The notes beneath the pieces are model-generated. The model had not been told where the DNA came from. It saw nothing but the letters and a program-made list of their open reading frames with translations, and made no database searches. The position numbers and the translations under genes were made by a program. 29,830 nucleotides of DNA, taken from positions 1-29,830 of IMG/VR virus record IMGVR_UViG_3300037193_001542. One strand, written 5' to 3'. Below are positions 1,374 through 27,255 of the stretch, piece by piece (the first letter of the stretch is position 1; every line of letters begins with the position of its first letter). The DNA comes from a virus.

Positions 1374-1805
1374 TTAAGAAGCTTGCACCGGAGTCGAACG
1401 CTCCAGAGTCGTTGTCAGGCCGCCTTCCATCTCCGCCGCCAGGCGGTCACGCTTCTCGGTCGGCAGCTCTGAAATCAACCGATCAGCAGTTTCGTCGATG
1501 CTGGCCTCGAAGGCCGCTTCTTCCCGTTCCAGCCGCCTTGAGTGGGCCTGGGCTTCCCCGGGTTCCAGGATGCGGCAGCCCGTGCGCTTGAGGTTTTCCT
1601 CGTGAGCACGGCGGCCTTCGATCATCCGGCCAGTGACCGGGCATTCGTAAGGCGCATAATCCCCCACGACGTAAGGTGCGCTGACCAGACGGTTCATCGC
1701 GGTATCGCAGTGAAGGCAGGAGACCGTTTTGTGCAGGTCTTCGAGCTTCAGCATCACTTCCCGCTTGCGGTTGCAAGTCGGGCACTTGTAGTCATACAGC
1801 GGCAT
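1374..1805 (-). CDS. FmdB-type zinc ribbon protein
   Basis: A 143-residue protein. The N-terminus MPLYDYKCPTC and the pairs Cys8/Cys11 and Cys30/Cys33 are the signature of the FmdB/CxxC_CxxC regulatory zinc-ribbon family. The rest is charged, mostly helical and Glu/Arg-rich. Phage homologues are often found between portal and scaffold genes; their role is not established. The start was chosen because the family begins MP.Y.Y.C, and because AGGGGACT lies just upstream. The first 14 bases overlap the portal's 3' end. A small hairpin with a UUCG loop precedes the ribosome binding site, with a parallel before the holin gene at 27886. Longer in-frame extensions are arginine/serine-rich and unlikely. 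Confidence 0.85.
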   Translation of the reverse strand: MPLYDYKCPTCNRKREVMLKLEDLHKTVSCLHCDTAMNRLVSAPYVVGDYAPYECPVTGRMIEGRRAHEENLKRTGCRILEPGEAQAHSRRLEREEAAFEASIDETADRLISELPTEKRDRLAAEMEGGLTTTLERSTPVQAS

Positions 1806-3993
1806 TTTGAGTCCCCTGGGCCGAAGCCCCTTGTTGTCCGTCCGGCGAAGCAGGTGCGGGTGCCTGCGGTGTGGTCTTGAGAACCACTTGCATCTGGAGC
1901 TGCTGCATCCTCTGGGCATGCTGCGCGCGGTTGAATTCCGCCTGCATTTCCAGGGCCTCTCGCTTGATCTGGTTGTCCATCTTGGCCAGCTCGAGTTCTT
2001 CTTGCTTGTTCGCGCGCTCTTGCTCGGCGGCTTGCTGCTCCATCTTGAACTTCTGCGCGTCGCGCTCCATTTCGGCCTTGACCTTCTGTGCAGCCGGGTC
2101 TTCCTTGGCCTGCGGTTCCTGCATCGCGCGGAAGGTCTCTTCGACGTCCTCGCCCATGCGGAACTTCTGGATGATGTTCAGCATCAGGGCCTTCGCCGCC
2201 GGGAAGGGCAGGACACCATCCTTGACCATCGGGAAGACACCGTTCAGGAGCTGCGCCATGGCGTTCATCAGCTCGCCGAGTTCCTTCTTGTCTTCCGTGG
2301 CTTCGATGTCCACCGTGCTGTTCGTCTCGATGTCGATGACGAAGTTGCGGATGGTGTCGTTGCGAAGGAAGTTGACGATCTCTTCCCAGGCGGGCTGTGC
2401 CAGCACCTGCTGAGCCTGCGCCGCCCGTTGCTGGAGCTGCTGGGTCTGCGCTTGAGCCTGTTCCGGGGCCATCAGGCCTTGTTGGGCCTGCATCTGCAGT
2501 TGCGGCAGCATGGTCTGCGCGGCCATGAGGGCCTGCTGCGCCTGCTGCTTCTCCGCCATCCGGGGGAACTTCAGCCCCGTCATCTGCTGGAAGGTCTCCA
2601 CCGAGAACTTCTTCGCCGCCAGCTCCGCCTGCATGCGAAAGCACGCCCGGCTGAAGCGCTGGACTTCCTTCTGCATGCGCTTGATCCGCATGGTGCCCCA
2701 GGCCTGCTTCATTTCCTGCGCGCCGAGGGTCTCGGAAGCCTGGCTCGCGCCGAGCATGATGTCCGCCACGCCGCAGATTTTCTGGATCGTGCCGATCACC
2801 TGCTGGCGGTTCAGGTAGAGTTGCTGGAGGGCCGTGACCAGGGTGTCCAGCGGCATCATCCAGATCGACTTTTCCAGGGCTCCGCCGCCCATCGACTGCA
2901 TCGCGGCGACGTTTTGTACGGGCTGCAGGGTGTTCTCGGGCTTGGAGAGGAGCTGGTCTAGGCCTTCCAGCGTGGAGTCGTACATGCCCCGGACTTTGAG
3001 GGCACGAGTCAAGTGCCCGATACGGCGGGTGACGTCGTCCAGCTCCTTCGCCTGCGCCTCGTACATCAGGTAGAGGGTGTTCGGGACGAGGGACTTGATG
3101 CGCGGGGTGAAGCTGATCGGCCGAGGGGCGTTGAAGAAGCCTTCCAGACCCAGCGGGTCGTCGTTTTCCTGGATGAAGGTCGGGAAGCCTTCGCTCAGGT
3201 AGATTTGCTTCTTCGTCCGCTTGTCCCAGACTTCCCAGATATGGGCGAATTTGGCGCCCTGGGCGTCCGCCGGACCCTGGTTGTCGTTTTCCTTGTCCTG
3301 GTCCTGGGAAGGGGAGTGGGTGAGCTTGATCTTGGAGCCCTTTTCCTCGCCGAAGGTGCTGACGCACTCCTCGCGGGTCATGAAGTGCTCGTAAGCCATC
3401 CAGGGCACGTGGGACCACTGCTTGGCATAGCCGAACCGGACCCGGTCCCAGGGCACAGGGTCGCCGCAGACGGTCTCGTACTTGACGCGCTTCTGCTCGA
3501 CGCCAGCCTGATCCAGGGTCTTTTCGAAGTCGGCGTCGTAGCTGAATCGGCACAGGCCACGGCCGGGGACCAGAGCCTCTTGCACAGCGAGCTTCTGCAG
3601 CTCGTCGAACTCCGTGTAGCGCGTGTCGCCGGTGTCCGCCAGGGCCACCAGGGTGTTCTTGATCACCTGCGTGGCCGCGATGGCCAGGGGGTTTTCCTTG
3701 TCGATCTTGCGCTTGACCACCGGCCTGGGCGTGTTGTTGTAAACTGCCGGCGCCAGGGTCTCGGTGTTGGCGTAGAGGATGTTGAAGTCGGCACTGGTGG
3801 CGCTGGAGTCCTCCGCGGCAGCTTTTTCCTGCTCGTAAATCGCCACCACGCGGGAAGCTTCCTTCCGCCACTTTTCCTCCCGCTTCCCAGCGTCATCCAG
3901 CTCCGTCAGCCAGCGCGTGACCTTTTCGTCCCGTGTCAGGGCCGTAGCCGCATCGTCGATTTTGCTGAAGAGCTTCTTGAAGATATCGGCCAT
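1792..3993 (-). CDS. Portal protein (P22-like)
   Basis: A 733-residue protein close in length to P22-type portals (about 725). The dodecameric ring forms the packaging channel at one capsid vertex and binds the terminase. The N-terminal part contains the 'KW..EA..V..IYE' and 'NILYANTETLAPA.YNN.PRP' type segments typical of large podovirus portals. Residues about 480-535 are extremely Gln/Ala-rich and helical. The last hundred residues are a charged Gln/Glu/Lys coiled coil, like the C-terminal barrel of P22-type portals. The ATG is 3 bases past the large-terminase stop, so translation is probably coupled. Its very high GC third positions leave another frame open for about 700 codons; that is a shadow. 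Confidence 0.9.
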   Translation of the reverse strand: MADIFKKLFSKIDDAATALTRDEKVTRWLTELDDAGKREEKWRKEASRVVAIYEQEKAAAEDSSATSADFNILYANTETLAPAVYNNTPRPVVKRKIDKENPLAIAATQVIKNTLVALADTGDTRYTEFDELQKLAVQEALVPGRGLCRFSYDADFEKTLDQAGVEQKRVKYETVCGDPVPWDRVRFGYAKQWSHVPWMAYEHFMTREECVSTFGEEKGSKIKLTHSPSQDQDKENDNQGPADAQGAKFAHIWEVWDKRTKKQIYLSEGFPTFIQENDDPLGLEGFFNAPRPISFTPRIKSLVPNTLYLMYEAQAKELDDVTRRIGHLTRALKVRGMYDSTLEGLDQLLSKPENTLQPVQNVAAMQSMGGGALEKSIWMMPLDTLVTALQQLYLNRQQVIGTIQKICGVADIMLGASQASETLGAQEMKQAWGTMRIKRMQKEVQRFSRACFRMQAELAAKKFSVETFQQMTGLKFPRMAEKQQAQQALMAAQTMLPQLQMQAQQGLMAPEQAQAQTQQLQQRAAQAQQVLAQPAWEEIVNFLRNDTIRNFVIDIETNSTVDIEATEDKKELGELMNAMAQLLNGVFPMVKDGVLPFPAAKALMLNIIQKFRMGEDVEETFRAMQEPQAKEDPAAQKVKAEMERDAQKFKMEQQAAEQERANKQEELELAKMDNQIKREALEMQAEFNRAQHAQRMQQLQMQVVLKTTPQAPAPASPDGQQGASAQGTQNAAV

Positions 3994-3995
3994 GA

Positions 3996-5537
3996 TCAGT
4001 CCTGGTTTTGGCGAGCGAGACGCCGCTGGGTAATGCGGTTGACAATCTCGTTGAATGTGAGTTCAGAGGGGAGTTTGGGCAAGTTTGAGCCTGCAGGCAC
4101 GGGAGCCTTCTTGACCCAGGGCCGGGACATCACGCCATAGCGCCAGTCGTCCGCTGCATGGTCTTCCGCCTCGGTGTCGAGGTCCTCTGCGTGGTCTTCG
4201 TCGTGTTGAAGCGTGGGGATGGTGCGGATCGAGTCCTCACAGGTCTCCAGCACGAACAGCATGGGGTCGGTTTTCGGGCCTTCGGGCTCGTTGGCGAACA
4301 GCGGGATGTTGCCCATGAGCATGCGCATCTGCTGCCAGCCGGGCTCCCGCTTGTTGTCGGCCTTTTTCCACATGCAGCCCTTGATCATCATGTTTTCCGC
4401 GATGCTGGGACCACCGTTGCGGATGAAGATGGAGGGGTCGGCGACGCCGTAAGTGATGTGCTCGCCCTTTTCGCGCTCCAGGATGCCCTGGGCGACGAGG
4501 GCAGCGTCCATTTTCAGGCCCTTATTCGCCCCCGTCGCGCCGTACCACTCGCGGTATCTCAGCAGCGCCCCAACAGGAAGGCCCCAAGTCCCGTCAGAAA
4601 CAGCCCACCAGCCGCAACTGAAAGGCTTCGCCGATCCCCAGTCAAAAGACCGGAATCGAAGAGCGTGCTTAGGAATAGCGTCCAGCCAATCCAGAGGCTT
4701 AACAATGAGATCGCTGTCCCAGTTGTCAAAAAATGCGCCATCGATGATGTTCCAGTTGCCCTCGAGCCAGGCCTTCACGAGCGCCGCGGAGCCGGATTGA
4801 CGCAGACGCAGGATGTACGTCGGGTCATTCCGCATCAGGAGCGCGTTATCACCGATCTTCGAGGGGATGAAGACCCGGCTCAGGCTCACCGTCTGCTTAA
4901 CATGCACGCCAGAGTCCGGATCGAAGTATTCGATATCCGTGGACTCGGTGATGATCTTGAAGCCGCGCGGATCGGGGTCGATGTAGCGCTTCTTGACCCA
5001 GTTATGTCCTGCGCCGCCGGGGTTTCCGGTCAGCCGCATCCCTACCGGGACTCCCGCTCCTGATCGTAGAGTGGCTCGCAGCTTGTCGATGGGTCCAGGG
5101 GAGGGAAAGTTTGTGACTTCCTCCACATAGACTCTAGTATAGCTGTGGCCCTGATATTCTTCCGCGTCCGAATCCTTTTCGAGGTACGCGAACTTGAGTC
5201 GAGCCCCGTTTGCCATTGTCCAGGTCTTCTGCTGCTCATTGTATTTCGCTCCCAGTTTGGGGAAGAGCTGCTTGGTACGCGCAATGACTTCAGCGAGCTG
5301 GACGAGCTTCCGACGGAAGAAGATGCCAATAGCGGCTTCCCCGTAGGTGTTGGAGTGCTCGAGCCAGTCACCGATGGAGGACTCTGTCTTCCCGCCGCCC
5401 CGGGCTCCCCCGTAGAAGACCTCGAAGACCGGACACTGGATCAGCGCGGTTTGAGGGCCCGGCTGGGGCTGCCAGATGACCGTAGGGCCGGCAGCACCTT
5501 CCGAGCGGAGGCCGAGATTGGGCGGGGGAAGGCGCAC
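3996..5537 (-). CDS. terL: Terminase large subunit
   Basis: A 513-residue packaging motor with ATPase and nuclease halves. Walker A is GGARGGGKT at residues 43-51. Walker B is VYVEE at 136-140, followed by the TGN coupling motif at 170-172. The nuclease half has Asp299 in FRSFDWGSAKP, Asp367 in YGVADPS and the acidic run HDEDHAEDLDTE near 445-456. HAADDWRYGVM follows, which is typical of terminase C-termini. The start is GTG with a stop in frame three codons upstream, so it cannot start much earlier; the ribosome binding site is weak. The stretch near 4560-4760 is less GC-rich at third positions than its surroundings. Confidence 0.95.
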   Translation of the reverse strand: MRLPPPNLGLRSEGAAGPTVIWQPQPGPQTALIQCPVFEVFYGGARGGGKTESSIGDWLEHSNTYGEAAIGIFFRRKLVQLAEVIARTKQLFPKLGAKYNEQQKTWTMANGARLKFAYLEKDSDAEEYQGHSYTRVYVEEVTNFPSPGPIDKLRATLRSGAGVPVGMRLTGNPGGAGHNWVKKRYIDPDPRGFKIITESTDIEYFDPDSGVHVKQTVSLSRVFIPSKIGDNALLMRNDPTYILRLRQSGSAALVKAWLEGNWNIIDGAFFDNWDSDLIVKPLDWLDAIPKHALRFRSFDWGSAKPFSCGWWAVSDGTWGLPVGALLRYREWYGATGANKGLKMDAALVAQGILEREKGEHITYGVADPSIFIRNGGPSIAENMMIKGCMWKKADNKREPGWQQMRMLMGNIPLFANEPEGPKTDPMLFVLETCEDSIRTIPTLQHDEDHAEDLDTEAEDHAADDWRYGVMSRPWVKKAPVPAGSNLPKLPSELTFNEIVNRITQRRLARQNQD

Positions 5538-6809: not shown

Positions 6810-6867
6810 GGTCACGCGCCCATCCGAGGCGCACCAACCCTGACCCATCACACTGAGGATGATCCAA

Positions 6868-7428
6868 ATGACCCAAGCTAACGAAACCAAGCGCCAACCC
6901 GCCATCACCGTGCAACCCCAGACGGTGGTGGATGGGCAACCCCGCGAAGCCGCCATCACCGAAGCCAGCAGGCTGGAGTTGCGGACGGCGGGCGGACAGG
7001 TGCTCCACGCCGACCCGATGCGGATTCCCGAGGCTCTGCACCCGGTGCTGATCCTCCACGGGCTGAAGCAAAAGCTCATCGACGCGGCCGCAATCAGCCG
7101 TGACCCCGAAACGGGCCGCAGCGCGACGATCGATGACAAGTGGGCCGCCGTCACGGCGGTCTGGGAGCGGCTGCTCAGCGGCGAATGGAATGCCGCTCGC
7201 GGCGAAGGCGGCGGCACCGGTGGCCTGTTGTTCAAGGCCCTCTGCCGGATGCAACAGACCAAGACGCCGGAGGCGATCAAGAGCTGGCTGGATGGCAAAA
7301 CCGACAAGGAAAAAGCCGCCCTGCGGCTCAATCCCAAGGTGGCCGCCATCATCGAAACCATCCGGGCGGAGAGCGCCAAGGCCGGCGACATCGACTCCGA
7401 CGCGATGCTGGACGAGCTGGGCGAATAA
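6868..7428 (+). CDS. Conserved early phage protein, paralogue of the gene at 8945
   Basis: A 186-residue protein of unknown function. Its C-terminal 90 residues align with the product of the gene at 8945-9511. Shared features are ERL..GEWN.AR, an 'EK.ALR.NP.V' block, a following 'E.IRAE' helix and the closing tail DSDAMLDELGE. The N-terminal third is different (Gln/Thr-rich, then 'EASRLELRTAGGQVLHADP'). GAGGA lies 9 bases upstream of the chosen ATG; an ATG 9 bases further up overlaps that site and is less likely. It is a single-gene unit: promoter-like sequence and hairpin upstream, strong terminator immediately downstream. Early timing is inferred from position. Confidence 0.85.
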   Translation: MTQANETKRQPAITVQPQTVVDGQPREAAITEASRLELRTAGGQVLHADPMRIPEALHPVLILHGLKQKLIDAAAISRDPETGRSATIDDKWAAVTAVWERLLSGEWNAARGEGGGTGGLLFKALCRMQQTKTPEAIKSWLDGKTDKEKAALRLNPKVAAIIETIRAESAKAGDIDSDAMLDELGE

Positions 7429-7442
7429 GCCCCACTGACAAG

Positions 7443-7476
7443 ACCCCGCAGCCCCCACGGTTGCGGGGTTTTTTTC
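7443..7476 (+). terminator. Rho-independent terminator
   Basis: ACCCCGCA (7443-7450) and TGCGGGGT (7462-7469) form a perfect 8-bp stem with a C-rich loop, followed directly by seven T residues. It lies 15 bases after the preceding stop codon. Confidence 0.92.
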
Positions 7477-7561: not shown

Positions 7562-7764
7562 GGGCGGAGGGCGGGCGAGGCGATGGCGGCGGGTGCCGGC
7601 CGAAAAACAGCCCCACGGAGGCCCCTAATCGGCCGTTTGAGCGGGTTTCGCCATTCCCGCATGGTTAGTACCATCCTCGCCCTCAAACGCCGCCACGGCC
7701 CCAAAATCCCGGAAAGTGTAACCAGCTGGAGTATCCGAGATTCGGTCAGCCCTGGTCAGCGGAT

Positions 7765-7919
7765 CGGCGGTTGCCGGTTCGTTTACTACCCAGCCCTATC
7801 CCCTTTTCCCGCTCGGCAGTGGATAAGATATGTTATCCCCTGAATTTTTAATATATAAGTTTACACTCGCGAGGGGAAGGGGGTATAGGGTCGGGTAGTA
7901 AATGAACCGAGAACCGCCG
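7765..7919. repeat. Large imperfect inverted repeat, candidate replication origin
   Basis: Bases 7766-7810 and the reverse complement of 7919-7875 match at about 37 of 45 positions. Another four or so base pairs extend inward with one bulge. Four of the eight mismatches become G-U pairs in a rightward RNA. The central 60 bases hold TTATCCACT on the minus strand (7826-7818), which matches the DnaA box TTATCCACA at 8 of 9 positions. TTATCCCCTG follows on the plus strand at 7833-7842, and then the AT-rich run 7842-7863. Together these look like an initiator-bound, easily melted origin. A cruciform, a structured RNA, or a MITE-like insertion with long terminal inverted repeats are alternatives; I see no target-site duplication. 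Confidence 0.6.
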
Positions 7920-7964
7920 CTCTTGTCGGGTCTACTGAAGTCTTGTGAGCGAGGGCTTGACTCC

Positions 7965-7993
7965 TTGAACCCCGGGGAATATGGTGGCATATT
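7965..7993 (+). promoter_or_regulatory. Rightward promoter with overlapping dyad
   Basis: TTGAAC, a 17-base spacer and CATATT (7988-7993). The spacer contains CCCGGGGAATATG. Together with the -10 region (CATATTCCGGG) it forms an imperfect inverted repeat, so a dimeric protein bound there would cover the promoter. The spacer motif CCCCGGGAATAT recurs in promoter-like sites at 18578 and 24217. The leader to the gene at 8055 would be about 55 bases. Confidence 0.6.
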
Positions 7994-8054: not shown

Positions 8055-8504
8055 ATGAAAAGTTCTGAATTGCTCCTTCTGCAGGACGTCTGGCGCAAGG
8101 CCTATGCCAAGGGCTCGATGAACATCGAGTTCAAGTCCAAGGCAGGCGCTGTCCGCGCTCGGATGCAGCTGTATAATGCGGTGAACAAGATCAAGCGGGG
8201 CTCCGAGGTCGCAGACGTCCCGCTAGCCAGGGCTGCAGAGGAACTCGAGATCGTCTGGGTCAACGACACCACGATTCGCCTGCAAAAGCGAGCAGAAAGC
8301 GACATGATGCAGGGGCTGATGGCTGCAGTTGGGCAATCCGTGGAGGAATATCAGGACCCCGAAATGCTCGAAGCCTCCGATCGCCTGCTGAGGGACCTGG
8401 AGCGCCAAGGGCTCATGAGTTCCGCGCCTGCGCCCGCGCCGACCGAGGATTCGCGGCCCGCTTTCGAACACCAGGCCAATCCGTTCTTCCCCAAGCGAGG
8501 CTGA
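8055..8504 (+). CDS. Hypothetical early protein
   Basis: A 149-residue protein beginning MKSSELLLLQDVWRKAY. The N-terminal 70 residues are helical and basic (NIEFKSKAGAVRARMQLYNAVNKIKRG). An acidic middle part follows, and then a Pro/Ala/Ser-rich C-terminus ending NPFFPKRG. The basic N-terminal region could bind nucleic acid, but no family is recognised. GGAG lies upstream of the ATG at a somewhat long spacing. An upstream in-frame extension would run through the promoter region and is rejected. It is first in a two-gene unit with the next gene. Confidence 0.75.
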   Translation: MKSSELLLLQDVWRKAYAKGSMNIEFKSKAGAVRARMQLYNAVNKIKRGSEVADVPLARAAEELEIVWVNDTTIRLQKRAESDMMQGLMAAVGQSVEEYQDPEMLEASDRLLRDLERQGLMSSAPAPAPTEDSRPAFEHQANPFFPKRG

Positions 8505-8944: not shown

Positions 8945-9511
8945 GTGGCCGAAACGCAAGAAACCGCCGGCAAGGCGAAGACCGAAGTGGAAACCGTGAC
9001 CATGTCCGACGGTCGGGCAGTCGACTTCGCCGGCAAGAAGAAGCTGATCAAGGAGAGCCTCCAGACCCCCGACGGCAAGATCGCCGTCCGCATGGACTTC
9101 CGCAATGGCCAGACGCGCCTGTTCCCGATCCCCGACGCCCTGCTGGCCAAGTTCGCGGCCCACGGCGCCGAGCAGAAGCTGGGTGACGAGATCGCCGGCC
9201 TGAACGACCTGGACGACGCCGTCCTGGCCGTGGACGAGCTGATGGAACGCCTGGGTCGCGGCGAGTGGAACGTCGCTCGCGAAGGCAACGGCCTGGCCGG
9301 CACCAGCGTCCTGGCCCGTGCGCTCGCCGAGGTGCAGGGCGTGGACATCGAGAAGGTCAAGACCTTCCTGAAGACCAAGTCCCAGGCCGAGAAGATCGCC
9401 CTGCGCAACAACCCCCGCGTCAAGCCTGTGGTCGAGCGCATCGAGGCCGAGAAGGCCAACAAGGGCTCGAAGGTGGACACCGACGCCATGCTGGGCGAGC
9501 TGTCGGCCTAA
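8945..9511 (+). CDS. Conserved early phage protein, paralogue of the gene at 6868
   Basis: A 188-residue protein starting at GTG, with AAGGAG 6 bases upstream. N-terminal part: 'VTMSDGRAVDFAGKKKLIKES' then 'VRMDFRNGQTRLFPIP', which looks like a small beta-rich domain. Then comes a helical part (LAKFAAHGAEQKLGDEIAG) and the block shared with the gene at 6868 (MERLGRGEWNVAR, EKIALRNNPRVKP). It closes with the tail VDTDAMLGELSA. Codon use is extremely GC-rich at third positions, which suggests high expression. It has its own promoter and hairpins. The function is unknown; abundance and the acidic tail suggest a DNA- or protein-binding accessory role (inference). Confidence 0.88.
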   Translation: MAETQETAGKAKTEVETVTMSDGRAVDFAGKKKLIKESLQTPDGKIAVRMDFRNGQTRLFPIPDALLAKFAAHGAEQKLGDEIAGLNDLDDAVLAVDELMERLGRGEWNVAREGNGLAGTSVLARALAEVQGVDIEKVKTFLKTKSQAEKIALRNNPRVKPVVERIEAEKANKGSKVDTDAMLGELSA

Positions 9512-9675: not shown

Positions 9676-9704
9676 TTGACACTCCCCCGGGATTATGCGA
9701 GAAT
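9676..9704 (+). promoter_or_regulatory. Rightward promoter sharing a block with the late promoter
   Basis: TTGACA (9676-9681), a 17-base spacer and GAGAAT (9699-9704), followed by AATGGTCGGGG. The spacer ends CCGGGATTATGC. From GGGATTATGC through the -10 to GGGG the sequence matches the leftward promoter at 6427-6401 at all positions but one. Transcription would begin near 9711 and enter the small-gene cluster. Confidence 0.75.
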
Positions 9705-9728
9705 AATGGTCGGGGGTTACTTGTTTCA

Positions 9729-15048: not shown

Positions 15049-15200
15049 CCAGAGTCCTTATTACCATCACCACGGAGGACTCTGAAGTCCTCGAGCAGTT
15101 CGCTATTGAACTGGAGCGTGATCCCCCGATCAAGCCTGAACGCCTGGCGTCGGAAATCGTGGATTACCTGGACAACAGCTTCGACATAACAGACATATGA
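15045..15200 (+). CDS. Very small acidic protein
   Basis: A 51-residue acidic protein (MTRVLITITTEDSEVLEQFA) whose ATG overlaps the previous stop and whose stop overlaps the helicase start (ATGA both times). AGGAGG lies 8 bases upstream. A beta strand, then two helices, are likely. Not recognised. Confidence 0.72.
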   Translation: MTRVLITITTEDSEVLEQFAIELERDPPIKPERLASEIVDYLDNSFDITDI

Positions 15201-16453
15201 CCCCCAATGACGAACAAGCCGTCGCCATCGCGGCGATGCTCGACCACCTGAAGACCACCGGCGACGATCCCTACTTCGTCCTCCGCGGTCCCGCAGGCAC
15301 AGGCAAGACCTTCACCAGCACCAACTCCCTGCTCCAGTTCAAGCGCCGCGTGATCGTCACCGCGCCGACGAACAAGGCCGTGCGGGTGCTCCGTGAAGCC
15401 CTGAAGCAGTGGGACCTCCGCCTGGAGTGCCGCACGATCTATTCGCTGCTCGGCCTCAAGCTCGCGCCGAACGGGGAAATCAAGGAGCTGACCAAGCCCG
15501 AGGATCCTGTGGACCTGGAAGACGTCGCCGCCGTCTTCGTGGATGAGTGGTCGATGGTCAACCAGGCCTTGTGGGGCCACATCCAGGACGCGCAGCAGCG
15601 ACACAAGCGCCTGCGCTGGGTGTTCATGGGGGATCAGTACCAGCTCCCGCCCGTGGGGGAAATGAGCAGCCCGATTGCGGGGCTGACCAAGGGCTCGGAG
15701 CTGACCCGCATCATGCGGCAGGACAACCAGATCCTCAAGCTCGCCGCTCACCTTCGCGACATGGTGGCCAAGCCCTTCGCCCAGCTCCGCCTCATCGAAG
15801 ACAACAACGGGGAAGAAGGAATCTGGAAGCCCGTCTCCCTCGACCAGGCCATCCTCAACCAGGCCCAGGGCTTCGCCAAAGGTGAGAACAAGGCCATCGC
15901 CTGGCGGAATGCCACGGTGGATCGCCTCAACCGCCTGATCCGCCAGGAACTCTTCGCCGACGGGGACAAGTACCCCTGGCAGGAAGGCGACCGCATCACC
16001 CTGCTCGAACCGGCGATGAACTTTGACAACGAAATCATCGGTACGACTGACGAAGAAGGTGCGGTGGAGGATTCGCAGATCGCCAACCACCCTGAGCACG
16101 AGGAATTCAAGTGCTGGCGCATCCTCATGCGCTCGGACATGAACACTGCGATGACCCTCTGGGTCCTGCACGATGATCCGAAGAACAAGTTCCTGTTCGA
16201 GCAGCGCAAGGCGAGGCTGGCCACTGTGGCCAGGGCGAATCCCAAGGCCTGGGGCGAGTACTGGTCCTTCATGGAGTCGTTCCACAAGGTCCGTCACGCC
16301 TATGCCATCACCGCGCACAGGGCGCAGGGCTCGACCTACCAGCGCGCGTTCGTGAACTGGAAGGACATCCTGGCCAACCAGAACAGGGGCGAGGCGATGC
16401 GGTGCCTATACGTTGCGGCCACCCGGCCGAAGAAGGAGCTTTATCTTGGCTAA
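15197..16453 (+). CDS. SF1 DNA helicase (Dda/RecD-like)
   Basis: A 418-residue ATP-dependent helicase. Motif I is GPAGTGKT at residues 31-38, and motif Ia is VTAPTNKAVRVL near 54-65. Motif II is VFVDE at 113-117, and motif III is GDQYQLPPV at 145-153. Motif V is TAHRAQGSTY at 372-381, and motif VI is YVAATRP at 405-411. The size and the compact layout fit the Dda branch of the RecD-like SF1B family, which moves 5' to 3' and acts in replication and recombination. The ATG overlaps the previous stop. The last 8 bases overlap the next gene, whose ribosome binding site lies inside this one. Confidence 0.92.
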   Translation: MTPNDEQAVAIAAMLDHLKTTGDDPYFVLRGPAGTGKTFTSTNSLLQFKRRVIVTAPTNKAVRVLREALKQWDLRLECRTIYSLLGLKLAPNGEIKELTKPEDPVDLEDVAAVFVDEWSMVNQALWGHIQDAQQRHKRLRWVFMGDQYQLPPVGEMSSPIAGLTKGSELTRIMRQDNQILKLAAHLRDMVAKPFAQLRLIEDNNGEEGIWKPVSLDQAILNQAQGFAKGENKAIAWRNATVDRLNRLIRQELFADGDKYPWQEGDRITLLEPAMNFDNEIIGTTDEEGAVEDSQIANHPEHEEFKCWRILMRSDMNTAMTLWVLHDDPKNKFLFEQRKARLATVARANPKAWGEYWSFMESFHKVRHAYAITAHRAQGSTYQRAFVNWKDILANQNRGEAMRCLYVAATRPKKELYLG

Positions 16454-21734: not shown

Positions 21735-23138
21735 ATGCGACTCCACAAAATCACTGACATCATCATCAGTCCCGACCGTCAACGCCAGCATTTCGACCCG
21801 GATGCCCTGGAAGAACTCAAGAATTCGATCCAGGAAGTCGGCCTGATGCAGTGCCCGGTGGTCCGGGAATCGGCTGACGGCCCGGTGCTGGTGGCAGGGG
21901 AGCGGCGTCTGCGCGTCATCACGGACATCTACGCCCTGGACGGCGCGATCCGCTACAACGGCCAGCCCGTGCCGACGGGGATGCTGCCCACGGTGACGCT
22001 GGGCGAACTCGACGTGCTGGCCGCGGAGGAAGCGGAGCTGGACGAGAACCTGAAGCGGAAGGACCTGACCTGGCAGGAACTCGCGGCGGCGCATGAGAGG
22101 CTGCACAAGCTGCGGGGTGCCCAGAAACTCGCTCGTGTCGAACGAGAGGGTCTCCAGCCTGGCATCCTTCCGCAAGTCCAGATCAACCAAACCGTCGCCG
22201 ACACCGCCAAGGAAATCCACGGCCGGTCCGACGGCTACTTTCAAGACGTCGTCCGCAAGGAACTGATCGTCGCTAAGCATCTGGACAACCCGGAGGTCGC
22301 GAAGGCGAAGTCGGTGGACGAGGCGTTCAAGATCTTGAAGCGCTCGGAGCAGGCGCAGAAGCACAGGGACCTGGCGCTGGAGGTCGGGAAAAGCTTCTCG
22401 GCGGAGGATCACCAGGCTTACAACATCAGCTGTCTGGAATGGATGCGAACAGCGCTCCGCACGCAGCCGGAAACCAGCTACGACGTTATCCTGACCGATC
22501 CACCGTATGGCATGGGCGCAGATTCCTTCGGCGACGGTGGCGGTAAGCTGGTCAACTCCCAGCACAAGTACGACGACTCCCACGAGTCCTGGGTTGCATT
22601 GATGGAGCAGTGGGCTCACCTGTCCTACGCCATCGCCAAGCCCCAAGCCCACGCCTACGTCTTCTGCGACATCGATCGCTTCCACGAACTCAAGGCCTTC
22701 ATGCAGGCCGCCGGCTGGTATGTCTTCCGCACCCCGCTGATCGACTACAAGACCGACTCCGGCCGAGTCCCTCTTCCTGACCGCGGTCCCCGTCGCCAGT
22801 GGGAAATGATCCTGTACGCGATCAAGGGCGAGAAGCCTGTCACCACCATCGTCGGAGACGTCATCCCATGTCAAGCAGATCCGAACATGACGCATGGAGC
22901 GCAGAAGCCCGTCGCCTTGTATGTCAACCTTCTGAAGCGGAGTGTCAAGCCTGGGGACCAGGTCCTGGACACCTTTGCTGGAAGCGGAACGATCTTTCCC
23001 GCTGCCCACTCGCTCCAGTGCCGTGCCACCGGCATCGAGCAGGAACCGGAATACTTCGGGATGTGCCTGAAGCGCCTGAAGGAACTCAAGGCGGCAACGG
23101 GTGACATGGATGCGCTGCTGGAGGGCCTGGGCAAATGA
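21735..23138 (+). CDS. ParB-like domain fused to beta-class DNA methyltransferase
   Basis: A 467-residue fusion. Residues 1 to about 110 form a ParB/Srx-type domain: 'IIISPDRQRQHFDPDALEEL' and AGERRL at 54-59, the usual phosphate-binding box. A helical middle follows (about 110-220). The C-terminal half is an N4-cytosine/N6-adenine methyltransferase with DPPY at 255-258, GAQKP near 388-392 and FAGSGT at 414-419. DPPY before FxGxG marks the beta class. It could methylate phage DNA to evade restriction, with the ParB part giving DNA binding or nicking. The tail MDALLEGLGK resembles the ends of the proteins at 6868, 8945 and 16769. No restriction gene is adjacent. Confidence 0.88.
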   Translation: MRLHKITDIIISPDRQRQHFDPDALEELKNSIQEVGLMQCPVVRESADGPVLVAGERRLRVITDIYALDGAIRYNGQPVPTGMLPTVTLGELDVLAAEEAELDENLKRKDLTWQELAAAHERLHKLRGAQKLARVEREGLQPGILPQVQINQTVADTAKEIHGRSDGYFQDVVRKELIVAKHLDNPEVAKAKSVDEAFKILKRSEQAQKHRDLALEVGKSFSAEDHQAYNISCLEWMRTALRTQPETSYDVILTDPPYGMGADSFGDGGGKLVNSQHKYDDSHESWVALMEQWAHLSYAIAKPQAHAYVFCDIDRFHELKAFMQAAGWYVFRTPLIDYKTDSGRVPLPDRGPRRQWEMILYAIKGEKPVTTIVGDVIPCQADPNMTHGAQKPVALYVNLLKRSVKPGDQVLDTFAGSGTIFPAAHSLQCRATGIEQEPEYFGMCLKRLKELKAATGDMDALLEGLGK

Positions 23139-23661: not shown

Positions 23662-26043
23662 ATGCAACCGACAGGACCTTGCCCGGCAAGGGTGATGATC
23701 GTAGGAGAAGCCCCCGGTGAAGCCGAAGAACGAGCAGGAATCCCTTTCGTTGGCCCAAGTGGCGCGGAACTTGACCGAATGCTACAGGAAGCAGGCATTT
23801 TCCGCTCAACTTGCTTCGTCACCAACGTTGTCCGCAAACGCCCTCCTGGAAATGACATTTCTGTCTTCTTTGCGGAGAGGAAAACAGATCGTACGCTTCA
23901 GCACGTGGAACGCGACGGGAAGTGGTGTCTTCCAGTTGTACTGGACGGCGTGGAACTGCTTAAGCGGGAAATCGAGGCTTGCCAGCCAAACGTTATCATC
24001 GCGCTTGGGAATACGGCTCTCTGGGCTCTCACGGGCAACTGGGGTATCACCAGCTGGCGAGGATCAACCCTTGAGTGCAAGCTCCCTCTTGCCCTTGACT
24101 ACAAGCCCAAGGTCATCCCGACCTACCACCCCGCCCTCATCCTCAGGCAGTGGGCATGGCGCCAGACTGGAGTTCATGATCTTCGACGAGCTGCACGAGA
24201 GTCACAGGTTCGGGAGATAAAGCCCCGGGAATATGACTTCATAATCCGGCCGGATTTCCACACCGCCTTCGCCATCCTCACGTCTCTCCTGCGCGAAGCG
24301 GACAAGGGCAAGCTCAACCTCGCCTGCGACATCGAAACTCGCGCGGGGCACATCGCCTGTATCGGCTTCGCCTGGAACAAACGCTCGGCCCTGTGCATCC
24401 CGCTGATGTGCGTCGAGCGGCCGGAAGGCTACTGGTCTATCGAAGAGGAAACCGAGCTGACGTTCCTCATGATGAAGCTCCTGACCCACCCCAACATCGA
24501 GGTCGGCGGGCAGAACTTCATCTACGACGCGCAGTACCTCTTCCGCTGGTGGGGGATCATCCCCAGGGTCAAGCACGACACCATGCTCTCCCACCACAGC
24601 ATGTTCAGCAACTCCCAGAAGTCCCTGGGCTACCTCGCCTCCATGTACTGCGAGCAGTTCGTCTACTGGAAGGACGACGGCAAGGACTGGGACCCGAAGG
24701 TCGGTGAGGACCAGCTCTGGAAGTACAACTGCGAGGACTGCTGTTACACCTTCGAAGTCTGGGAAGGGGAAGCCTCCGCCATCCAGGCGTTCACTCCCAG
24801 CTGGCCCAAGCTCCCCGCCGTCCACGACTTCCAGCACCAGCTCTTCTACCCCGTCCTGCGTACGATGAACCGGGGCATTCGGTCGAACCAGTCCCGCCGG
24901 GGGGAAATGGCCATCACGCTGCAGGAAGAAATCGCCAAGCGCGAACAGTTCCTGATCGACGTCACCGGCCATCCCCTGAACCCGAAGTCCCCCAAGCAAA
25001 TGCAGGAGTTCTTCTATGGAGCCCTTCGACAGAAGCCTATCTTCAATCGTAAGTCCGGGACCATCACCTGTGACGATGAGGCACTTAATAAGATTGCAGA
25101 AAGGGAACCTATTCTGCGACCTCTCGTTCGACGAATCCTGGAGCACCGAAGCCTTGGAGTGTTTCTGTCCACCTTTGTCAACGCGCCTCTCGACAGTGAT
25201 GGCAGAATCCGATGCTCCTTCAACATCGCTGGAACTGAAACTTATCGGTTCTCGTCTTCTCAGAACGCTTTCGGAAGTGGCCTCAACCTGCAGAATATCC
25301 CCGCAGGGGGCGAAGCTGGAGATGACCTTGAGCTACCCAACATCCGAACTCTTTTCCTCCCAGATCCTGGGAACACGTTTTTCGACATCGACCTGTCATC
25401 GGCTGACCTGCGAATTGTGACCTGGGAGGCGGACGAGCCGGAAATGAAGGCGATGCTGCGGGAAGGCAAGGACCCGTACACGGAGGTCGCCAGGGAGTTC
25501 TACCGCGACCCTTCCTTCACGAAAAAAGACCCCCGCCGGCAGACCTTCAAAGCCCTGGCCCACGGCACGCACTACCTGGGCAGCCCGAAGGGCTTGTCCG
25601 ACCGCATCGGCCTGCCCGTCGCCGACGTTGAGCGTATCCAGAAGTGGTACTTCGGCAAGTTCCCCAACATCAAGAAGTGGCAGGAGGACTTCAAGGACCA
25701 GCTCGTCAAGCGCCGCTACGTCGAGAACATTTTCGGCTATCGTGCTTACTGCTTCGACCGAATCGAAGGCACGGTGTTCAACCAGTTCATCGCCTGGATT
25801 CCGCAGTCCACCGTTGCGTGCCTGATCAACCGAGCCTACGTCGCCATCGACGCCCAGCTCAAGGAAGTCGAGGTCCTGCTCCAGGTTCACGATTCCCTGG
25901 CCGGGCAATTCCCGACACACTTGAAGGACTGGGCCATCAAGCGGATCGTAGAGCTGGCTGAAATCCCGCTGCCCTACGACGACCCTTGCCTTATCCCCGT
26001 TGGGGTGAAAACCAGCGATGTGAGCTGGGGCGACTGCAAGTAA
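23662..26043 (+). CDS. UDG-like domain fused to family A DNA polymerase
   Basis: A 793-residue replicative polymerase. Residues 1 to about 190 are a uracil-DNA-glycosylase family 4-like domain (GEAPGE at 15-20, TNVVRKRPPGN at 54-64, YHPALILR at 155-162). SPO1-type polymerases have a similar extra domain. The iron-sulphur Cys pairs of active family 4 enzymes are not evident. The 3'-5' exonuclease has DIET at 223-226, N285/D289 and Y355xxxD359. Polymerase motif A has Asp577 in DLSSADLR. Motif B is R626..K630..H634-G635..Y638, with His where Pol I has Phe762. Motif C is HDS at 743-745. Third-position GC alternates sharply along the gene. Confidence 0.93.
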   Translation: MQPTGPCPARVMIVGEAPGEAEERAGIPFVGPSGAELDRMLQEAGIFRSTCFVTNVVRKRPPGNDISVFFAERKTDRTLQHVERDGKWCLPVVLDGVELLKREIEACQPNVIIALGNTALWALTGNWGITSWRGSTLECKLPLALDYKPKVIPTYHPALILRQWAWRQTGVHDLRRAARESQVREIKPREYDFIIRPDFHTAFAILTSLLREADKGKLNLACDIETRAGHIACIGFAWNKRSALCIPLMCVERPEGYWSIEEETELTFLMMKLLTHPNIEVGGQNFIYDAQYLFRWWGIIPRVKHDTMLSHHSMFSNSQKSLGYLASMYCEQFVYWKDDGKDWDPKVGEDQLWKYNCEDCCYTFEVWEGEASAIQAFTPSWPKLPAVHDFQHQLFYPVLRTMNRGIRSNQSRRGEMAITLQEEIAKREQFLIDVTGHPLNPKSPKQMQEFFYGALRQKPIFNRKSGTITCDDEALNKIAEREPILRPLVRRILEHRSLGVFLSTFVNAPLDSDGRIRCSFNIAGTETYRFSSSQNAFGSGLNLQNIPAGGEAGDDLELPNIRTLFLPDPGNTFFDIDLSSADLRIVTWEADEPEMKAMLREGKDPYTEVAREFYRDPSFTKKDPRRQTFKALAHGTHYLGSPKGLSDRIGLPVADVERIQKWYFGKFPNIKKWQEDFKDQLVKRRYVENIFGYRAYCFDRIEGTVFNQFIAWIPQSTVACLINRAYVAIDAQLKEVEVLLQVHDSLAGQFPTHLKDWAIKRIVELAEIPLPYDDPCLIPVGVKTSDVSWGDCK
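24217..24245 (+). promoter_or_regulatory. Promoter-like copy inside the polymerase gene
   Basis: CCCCGGGAATATGACTT followed by CATAATCC repeats the spacer, -10 and downstream pattern of the promoter at 18578 (spacer start, -10 and most of the CCGG tail match). The -35 position reads ATAAAG and is poor. It may be a remnant, a protein-binding site or a weak internal promoter. Confidence 0.35.
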
Positions 26044-26067: not shown

Positions 26068-27255
26068 GTGGCACGCAATTACGAAAACTGGCTGCAGGGG
26101 TTCATCGACTACGCGAGTTTCGGTGAAGCCCCTCGGCACATGTACTTCTGGACGGGGGTGAGTACCATCGCCGGGGTGCTGAGGAGAAAGTGTTGGATCG
26201 ATCAGAAGAGCTTCAAGTGGTTTCCGAACTTCTATGTAGTGCTTGTGGCGCCACCTGGCATTGTGTCGAAGTCTACAACAGCGGGAATAGGGATGGAGTT
26301 ATTAAGAGCCGTCCCCGGGGTCAAATTCGGACCAGAGATCGTTACATGGCAGGCCCTCGCTACATCGTTTGTCAATGCGGCCGAGACCTTCGAATACCAG
26401 GAACTGCACCACACTCAGTCAGCCTTGACTATCGAATCTTCGGAGTTTGGGAACTTGTTGAACCCACAGGACAAGGAAATGGTAGACATCCTCGTCACGC
26501 TCTGGGACGGCAAGGGCCTGAAGAAGGAGACCAAGCACAGCGGGAATGATGAAATCGTCAATCCCTGGATCAACCTCATTGCCTGCACCACGCCCAGCTG
26601 GATCGCCGGCAATTTCCCTGAATACCTCATCGGGGGCGGCCTCACTTCCCGTATGGTTTTCGTCTATGCGGAGCAGAAGGAAAAGCTAGTCCCCTATCTC
26701 CACAAGGTCGCGCCGGGGAACTACGCCGAAACCAAGGCGAAGCTGCTCGAGGACCTGGAAACCATTGCCCTGAAGTGCGTGGGGGAATACAAGCTAACGC
26801 CCGAAGCCGAGCGCTGGGGAGAGGAATGGTATGCGAAGCACTACAATGGGGAGCGGCCGAAGAACCTTGACGACGATCGGTTCGGAGGCTACTTTGCTCG
26901 CAAGCAAACGCACATCCACAAGCTTGCCATGGTACTTGCGGCAGCGCAACGTAACGAAATGGTCATTGAAGCAGAGGACCTTCAGCTCGCGAACACGATG
27001 GTCACAGATCTCGAGCCTGATATGGCTATGGTGTTCAGTAAGATCGGGAAAACGGACGACTCCTTCTACGCCGACCGCCTAATCGCCTTCGTCCGCCGCC
27101 AGGGAGAAGTCCCCTTCAAAGAGGTCTTCCGCTTCGTCCACTCACAGTTTCCGAGCCTTCGAGACTTCGAAGATATCCTGGCCGGGTGCGTGCGGGCGGG
27201 TTATCTGACCGTTTACAATAAGAACGGAGTGCCCACGGTAAAAGCCGCGGATTGA
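26068..27255 (+). CDS. DUF3987-like ATPase (putative replicative helicase/primase-associated)
   Basis: A 395-residue protein starting at GTG, with AAAGG 8 bases upstream. 'HMYFWTGVSTIAGVLRRKCW' is followed by WFPNFYVVLVAPPGIVSKST. The second stretch holds a degenerate P-loop (Gly64 ... Lys68-Ser69). Later NPWINLIACTTPSWIAGNFP and LIGGGLTSRMVFVYAE correspond to the strand and sensor region of DUF3987-type phage proteins, which are related to helicases. The last 70 residues resemble a winged helix (VPFKEVFRFVHSQFPSLRDF). Its place after the polymerase suggests the replicative helicase role. The 3' end overlaps the convergent gene at 27142-27435. Confidence 0.75.
   Translation: MARNYENWLQGFIDYASFGEAPRHMYFWTGVSTIAGVLRRKCWIDQKSFKWFPNFYVVLVAPPGIVSKSTTAGIGMELLRAVPGVKFGPEIVTWQALATSFVNAAETFEYQELHHTQSALTIESSEFGNLLNPQDKEMVDILVTLWDGKGLKKETKHSGNDEIVNPWINLIACTTPSWIAGNFPEYLIGGGLTSRMVFVYAEQKEKLVPYLHKVAPGNYAETKAKLLEDLETIALKCVGEYKLTPEAERWGEEWYAKHYNGERPKNLDDDRFGGYFARKQTHIHKLAMVLAAAQRNEMVIEAEDLQLANTMVTDLEPDMAMVFSKIGKTDDSFYADRLIAFVRRQGEVPFKEVFRFVHSQFPSLRDFEDILAGCVRAGYLTVYNKNGVPTVKAAD

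Follow-up and report, generated by a model that had tools for sequence, protein, structure and literature searches.

A long inverted repeat with an AT-rich centre as a candidate replication origin in a lineage of phages with UDG-PolA polymerases

Outside a few models, the replication origins of tailed phages are almost never known. The mitochondrial light-strand origin (OriL) is a stem-loop in which the T-tract of the loop is single-stranded and serves as a priming site (PMC4256270). In herpes simplex virus, the inverted binding sites of OriS and OriL flank an AT-rich spacer that melts (PMC12543377). The replication module of the mobile element SCCmec (CCPol-MP, Cch2) combines a polymerase of the A family with a putative origin in which inverted repeats occur, and its CCPol-MP primed poorly on poly-dT (PMC7581432). 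Bacterial oriC of the DnaA type is characterized by an AT-rich element beside short repeats.

The phage element described here is a long inverted repeat (IR) with an AT-rich centre, and it shares features with these systems. It would resemble OriL if its arms form a stem around the homopolymer tract found in most relatives, and no homology is claimed. Nevertheless, the phage stem is 40 to over 100 bp and its loop 50-150 nt, whereas OriL is much smaller, is a second-strand origin and uses POLRMT. The arms of the herpes origins are sequence-specific UL9 boxes, whereas the arm sequence of the phage element is not conserved between relatives, and no conserved binding site of a known initiator was found in the elements, so the element cannot be assigned to either the mitochondrial OriL or the herpes OriS type. 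The SCCmec origin differs in that its defining feature is a set of direct repeats (iterons) to which the Cch2 helicase binds. Concerning oriC, the likeness lies in an AT-rich element next to short repeats, but in the phage element DnaA boxes are neither clustered nor enriched. Searches of the open-licence literature turned up no earlier account of an element of this kind.

The window, meaning the whole stretch of DNA analysed, is a 29.8-kb viral record (29,830 bases) with an overall content of ~61-62% G+C. It is a fragment of a genome of ~40 kb, which bears on origin calls based on skew. The portal (1792-3993) and the terminase large subunit (TerL, 3996-5537) are encoded leftward, and the rightward genes include those for a Dda-like helicase (15197-16453), a PD-(D/E)XK nuclease, a Sak4-like ATPase, a family-A DNA polymerase with an N-terminal uracil-DNA-glycosylase-type domain (UDG-PolA, 23662-26043) and a DUF3987/primase protein (26068-27255). 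Another rightward gene (21735-23138) encodes a fusion of a ParB N-terminal domain and a DNA methyltransferase. The IR is located between gene A (6859-7428, plus strand) and the rightward operon, whose first gene apparently starts at 8055.

Gene A encodes a protein of 189 aa of unknown family, and its paralogue gene B (8945-9511, plus strand, 188 aa) is found on the opposite side of the element. Both products share 43% identity over 135 aa (E 3e-24). The two proteins are conserved throughout the lineage and belong to no known family or fold; they have a conserved HG-x-x-QK motif, and their C-terminal tail is acidic (DxDALLxEL). The structure model of the gene A product is confident (pLDDT 88, pTM 0.61); its comparison gave zero matches in the PDB and only uncharacterised viral proteins in BFVD. 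In the relatives, the 3' end of gene A faces the element, also in the subset of genomes where the gene is inverted relative to the terminase, so the element lies near the point where the gene blocks diverge whatever the local direction of transcription.

Gene A is followed by an apparent intrinsic terminator on the plus strand (7446-7475, CCCCGCA...TTGCGGGG and then T7), which was read directly and is not in the terminator-scan list. Beyond the IR, 34 bp past the right arm, there is a promoter-like sequence on the plus strand for the rightward (early/replication) operon (TTGACT-N17-TATGGT, 7957-7985), and on the minus strand another one (TTGAGA-N17-CAGAAT, 6439-6411) precedes the leftward (terminase/structural) block. 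These two and a third at 9676-9715 (plus strand) are related (TTGA..., 17 nt, -10) and have a common block like GGGATTATGC..GAATAATGG, and they probably constitute a phage-specific promoter family; the downstream sequence CGCATAGTCTTCCGCC is common to the 7957-7985 and 6439-6411 copies.

Regarding the anatomy of the IR, arms at 7765-7810 and 7874-7919 pair at 38 of 46 positions (82.6%) and enclose a centre of 63 nt; without gaps, the repeat can be extended to arms of 49 nt (7762-7810 and 7874-7922, 82% complementary). The large inverted repeat reported in the earlier note is therefore real, and slightly bigger than claimed. It is by far the strongest of the window (score 22, runner-up 11), while 20 shuffles of the whole window gave maximum scores of 10-19. 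When gaps in the arms were allowed, the score rose to 36, whereas dinucleotide shuffles of these 300 bp (n = 300) gave 9.4 +/- 1.3 and at most 14.5, and the z of RNA folding was -9.6 for one strand and -9.4 for the other. The centre (7811-7873) has 38% GC and contains the AT-rich core GAATTTTTAATATATAAGTTTACA (7842-7865), the AT-richest part of the window. In fact, for lengths of 17, 20, 25, 30 and 40 bases the AT-richest stretch of the whole window falls within this centre, for example the 20-mer ATTTTTAATATATAAGTTTA at 7844-7863 with 95% AT, which bears out the AT-rich centre of the earlier note at every tested length from 17 to 40 bases. A putative AT-rich unwinding element, which is a feature of replication origins, is thus present at the centre of the IR. 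The IR is single copy, and neither a further copy of the arm sequence nor relatives of the element at the DNA level were found in the phage and plasmid collections searched. A transposon or MITE was ruled out on these grounds.

The centre also contains a small inverted repeat, read from the sequence (AGTGGATAAGATATGTTATCC, GGATAA-N6-TTATCC, 7818-7838), and this repeat contains the DnaA-like sites on which the earlier note had partly based its proposal of an origin, TTATCCACT (7818-7826, minus strand) and TTATCCCCTG (7833-7842, plus strand). The match of 8 of 9 positions to the DnaA box is correct. It lends no support to an origin, given its chance frequency in the window (4 matches of this quality observed, 2.07 +/- 1.35 expected) and the lack of enrichment in relatives, where the elements of 25 genomes hold 2 occurrences of TTWTNCAC against 2.1 in shuffles, with one perfect DnaA box in total. 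The DnaA argument of the earlier note is unsupported for this reason, and a DnaA-dependent, oriC-like origin was rejected, as DnaA boxes (TTWTNCACA) are neither clustered nor enriched in the window and the 25 genomes. A separate case is the relative L007, where a second long inverted repeat (313-455), both arms of which contain a perfect DnaA box (TTATCCACA), adjoins the A9-centred repeat at 89-233.

Skew was not uniform among genomes: GC-skew extremes were near the element in some of them and elsewhere in others, with inconsistent sign and no consistent switch. Of 14 genomes, 13 have their AT-skew minimum no more than ~2 kb from the element, and the remaining one has it 10 bp away across the wrap; this minimum tracks gene orientation. 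Concerning short motifs beside the run of A or T described below, TTGTAA (9 versus 3.3 +/- 1.5 in shuffles) and GTAACA (7 versus 2.7 +/- 1.4) were counted and GTTTAC was also examined, but many motifs were tried, so the three stay a lead. Runs of C6/G6 were 17-fold more frequent than in the rest of the genome, yet not clearly above shuffles (44 versus 30.8 +/- 7.0).

The earlier note had made its proposal depend, beforehand, on the repeat being present in relatives, and there it is kept at the equivalent place. IMG/VR relatives were fetched with the terminase protein and the searches for inverted repeats were done blind. Many relatives present one long imperfect repeat of 150-440 bp in total, in most cases located upstream of the terminase at a distance of 2-3 kb. 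At its centre there is a run of A8-A12, less often of T, and the scores are as high as 55, versus a 99.9th percentile of 18 in the background. In addition, 39 near-complete or large genomes with the UDG-PolA polymerase, the window included, were scanned whole. In this set, which was gathered by terminase or gene A homology and not at random, and which consists mostly of uncultured phages with some incomplete records, the best IR of the genome lies just past the 3' end of the gene A homologue in 26 genomes, at 0.6-1.7 kb from where the gene A hit begins. For 23 of them this holds directly, for G022 once its contig is wrapped, and for G029 and G030 through a second gene-A-family hit. Moreover, the best IR, picked blind to runs, is no more than 60 nt from an A8+/T8+ run in 23/39 genomes, where 0.11 would be expected, most genomes having only one or two such runs. 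Read in the sense of the terminase, the run is of A in 28 unique elements and of T in 5. The element is also present in MW202489 (circular, 40,250 bp), which is the sole close record of the public phage collection. The IR centre of the window itself has A5/T5 at most and no A8+/T8+ run; its core (7842-7865) lies where relatives have the A8-A12/T8+ run and is presumed to be a melting or entry tract.

By the same test, 13 of the 39 polymerase-bearing genomes are without the element, some of them having only the run and some neither feature; G014 and G015 carry the polymerase, gene A and gene B and have no IR between A and B. Two further observations concern this set. One contig of L080 (G021) has several strong inverted repeats scattered throughout the genome (scores of 36, 32.5 and 31.5), unlike the other relatives. 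The polymerase match is in two pieces in G011, G013, G015, G022, G030, G031, G034 and G035, in some of them with a gap or an in-frame stop, which suggests inteins, introns, split genes or sequence errors.

The distribution of the element among more distant phages was informative about what it is inherited with. Five genomes with a related TerL and without the polymerase, gene A or gene B (G036, G037, G038, Pam5 and MW202444) show no IR above background. Conversely, Microcystis phage Mel-JY34 has the polymerase (44%), the primase (54%) and both gene A-family genes, and no TerL homologue was detected in it; its best IR (score 24.0, next 17.5) is located between the two gene A-family genes and contains the only A8+/T8+ run of that genome. 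The element therefore travels with replication and not with packaging, and an association with the replication module is a feature of replication origins. In Vibrio phage VS-ABTNL-3, identified through its related primase (44%), the highest-scoring IR is centred on T8 and located in a 687-bp gap between divergent gene blocks. In more distant phages with a related primase the element was not seen, and PaP2, Tiera and Kuura have no IR above background. In Kuura and Tiera the AT-richest 30-mer lies in the corresponding gap; in the Caulobacter phage Kuura (L284) this 30-mer (43137-43166) holds an A12 in the early-gene gap with no strong repeat, and could represent the element in reduced form.

What is conserved in the arms is the symmetry. 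They are unalignable between most phages and their pairing is nonetheless kept. Between G006 and G024, a divergent pair, complementarity has survived changes of both partners at 15 paired positions, and the positions changed on both sides amount to 20 versus 10.8 expected, a value reached by 0 of 5000 shuffles. Compensatory change was significant in this pair only, the closer pairs having too few changes, and in close pairs the "gained" pairs are of the same order as the "lost" ones. Folding models place the run fully unpaired in the apical loop in some elements and strands only.

Several other functions could be proposed for such a repeat. If transcribed, it could work as a long hairpin RNA (a regulator, a decoy or a processing signal), and the very stable folds predicted for both strands (z ~ -9.5) agree with this. 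RNA hairpins tolerate G-U pairs, but over 28 elements the mismatches of the arms are G-T in 150 cases and A-C in 167, so that G-U is not favoured on either strand; this absence of bias points to a DNA rather than an RNA element and argues against an RNA transcribed from one strand as the reason why the symmetry is maintained. Furthermore, the interval from the terminator of gene A to the IR gave no promoter-like site in the promoter scan, the direction of reading through the element is not constant, as the gene between it and the divergence point can be either way round, and Rfam covariance models gave zero matches at gathering thresholds, all of which makes a structured RNA unlikely. A phage regulator bound to both arms could instead control the divergent promoters 6439-6411 and 7957-7985, between which the element lies, 34 bp ahead of one -35. 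We regard this as rather unlikely: a single regulator would conserve the sequence of the arms, which cannot be aligned between relatives, and operators do not usually have a central A8+/T8+ tract or arms that measure 40 to over 100 bp.

The proximity of the terminase gene, 2-3 kb away in many relatives, and the several contigs that end near the element would fit a role in packaging, as a pac/cos site or genome end on which the terminase acts. Such a function is highly improbable, as the element is missing in the five genomes with a homologous TerL but a different replication module and is found in Mel-JY34, whose TerL has no detectable homology; the breaks of near-complete contigs are spread over many positions, so the ends close to the IR seem to be due to assembly. 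The symmetry could also be the product of template-switch mutation at a fork-stalling quasi-palindrome with no selected role, since hairpin-templated correction can match the arms while their sequence drifts, and the similar numbers of gained and lost pairs in close phage pairs are in line with it. This explanation is very unlikely too, because it leaves unexplained the fixed genomic position, the central A8+/T8+ tract in 23 genomes and the co-inheritance with the replication module.

A replication origin is the best explanation of these data, and in this respect the proposal of the earlier note holds without its DnaA argument. From the sequence comparisons, the IR at 7762-7922 probably serves this phage and its lineage as the replication origin, or as the main site of initiation. 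Such an origin would likely be DnaA-independent and placed at the hub where the gene blocks diverge, with a dyad or hairpin that exposes the A/T tract. The arms could fold the duplex back, as a cruciform in supercoiled DNA or as a hairpin when single-stranded, or alternatively they could be bound as a dyad. The AT-rich core (A8-A12/T8+ in most relatives) would thereby be exposed as single strand at the centre, the Dda-like helicase and the primase/PolA of the phage may enter there, and forks would depart both ways along the two diverging gene blocks. The small proteins encoded by genes A and B are candidate factors acting at the origin.

A broader and more tentative possibility is that these phages have a family of origins defined by shape and not by sequence, in which a long, freely drifting DNA hairpin or cruciform would offer an A/T tract to the polymerase, primase and helicase together with genes A/B, without DnaA, iterons or a known initiator. 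If the origin reading is true, origins could be recognised in uncultured genomes by structure and position instead of sequence, and phages with no known initiator would have a defined site for testing how they begin replication. It would also hint at a role for the unannotated pair of gene A and gene B proteins.
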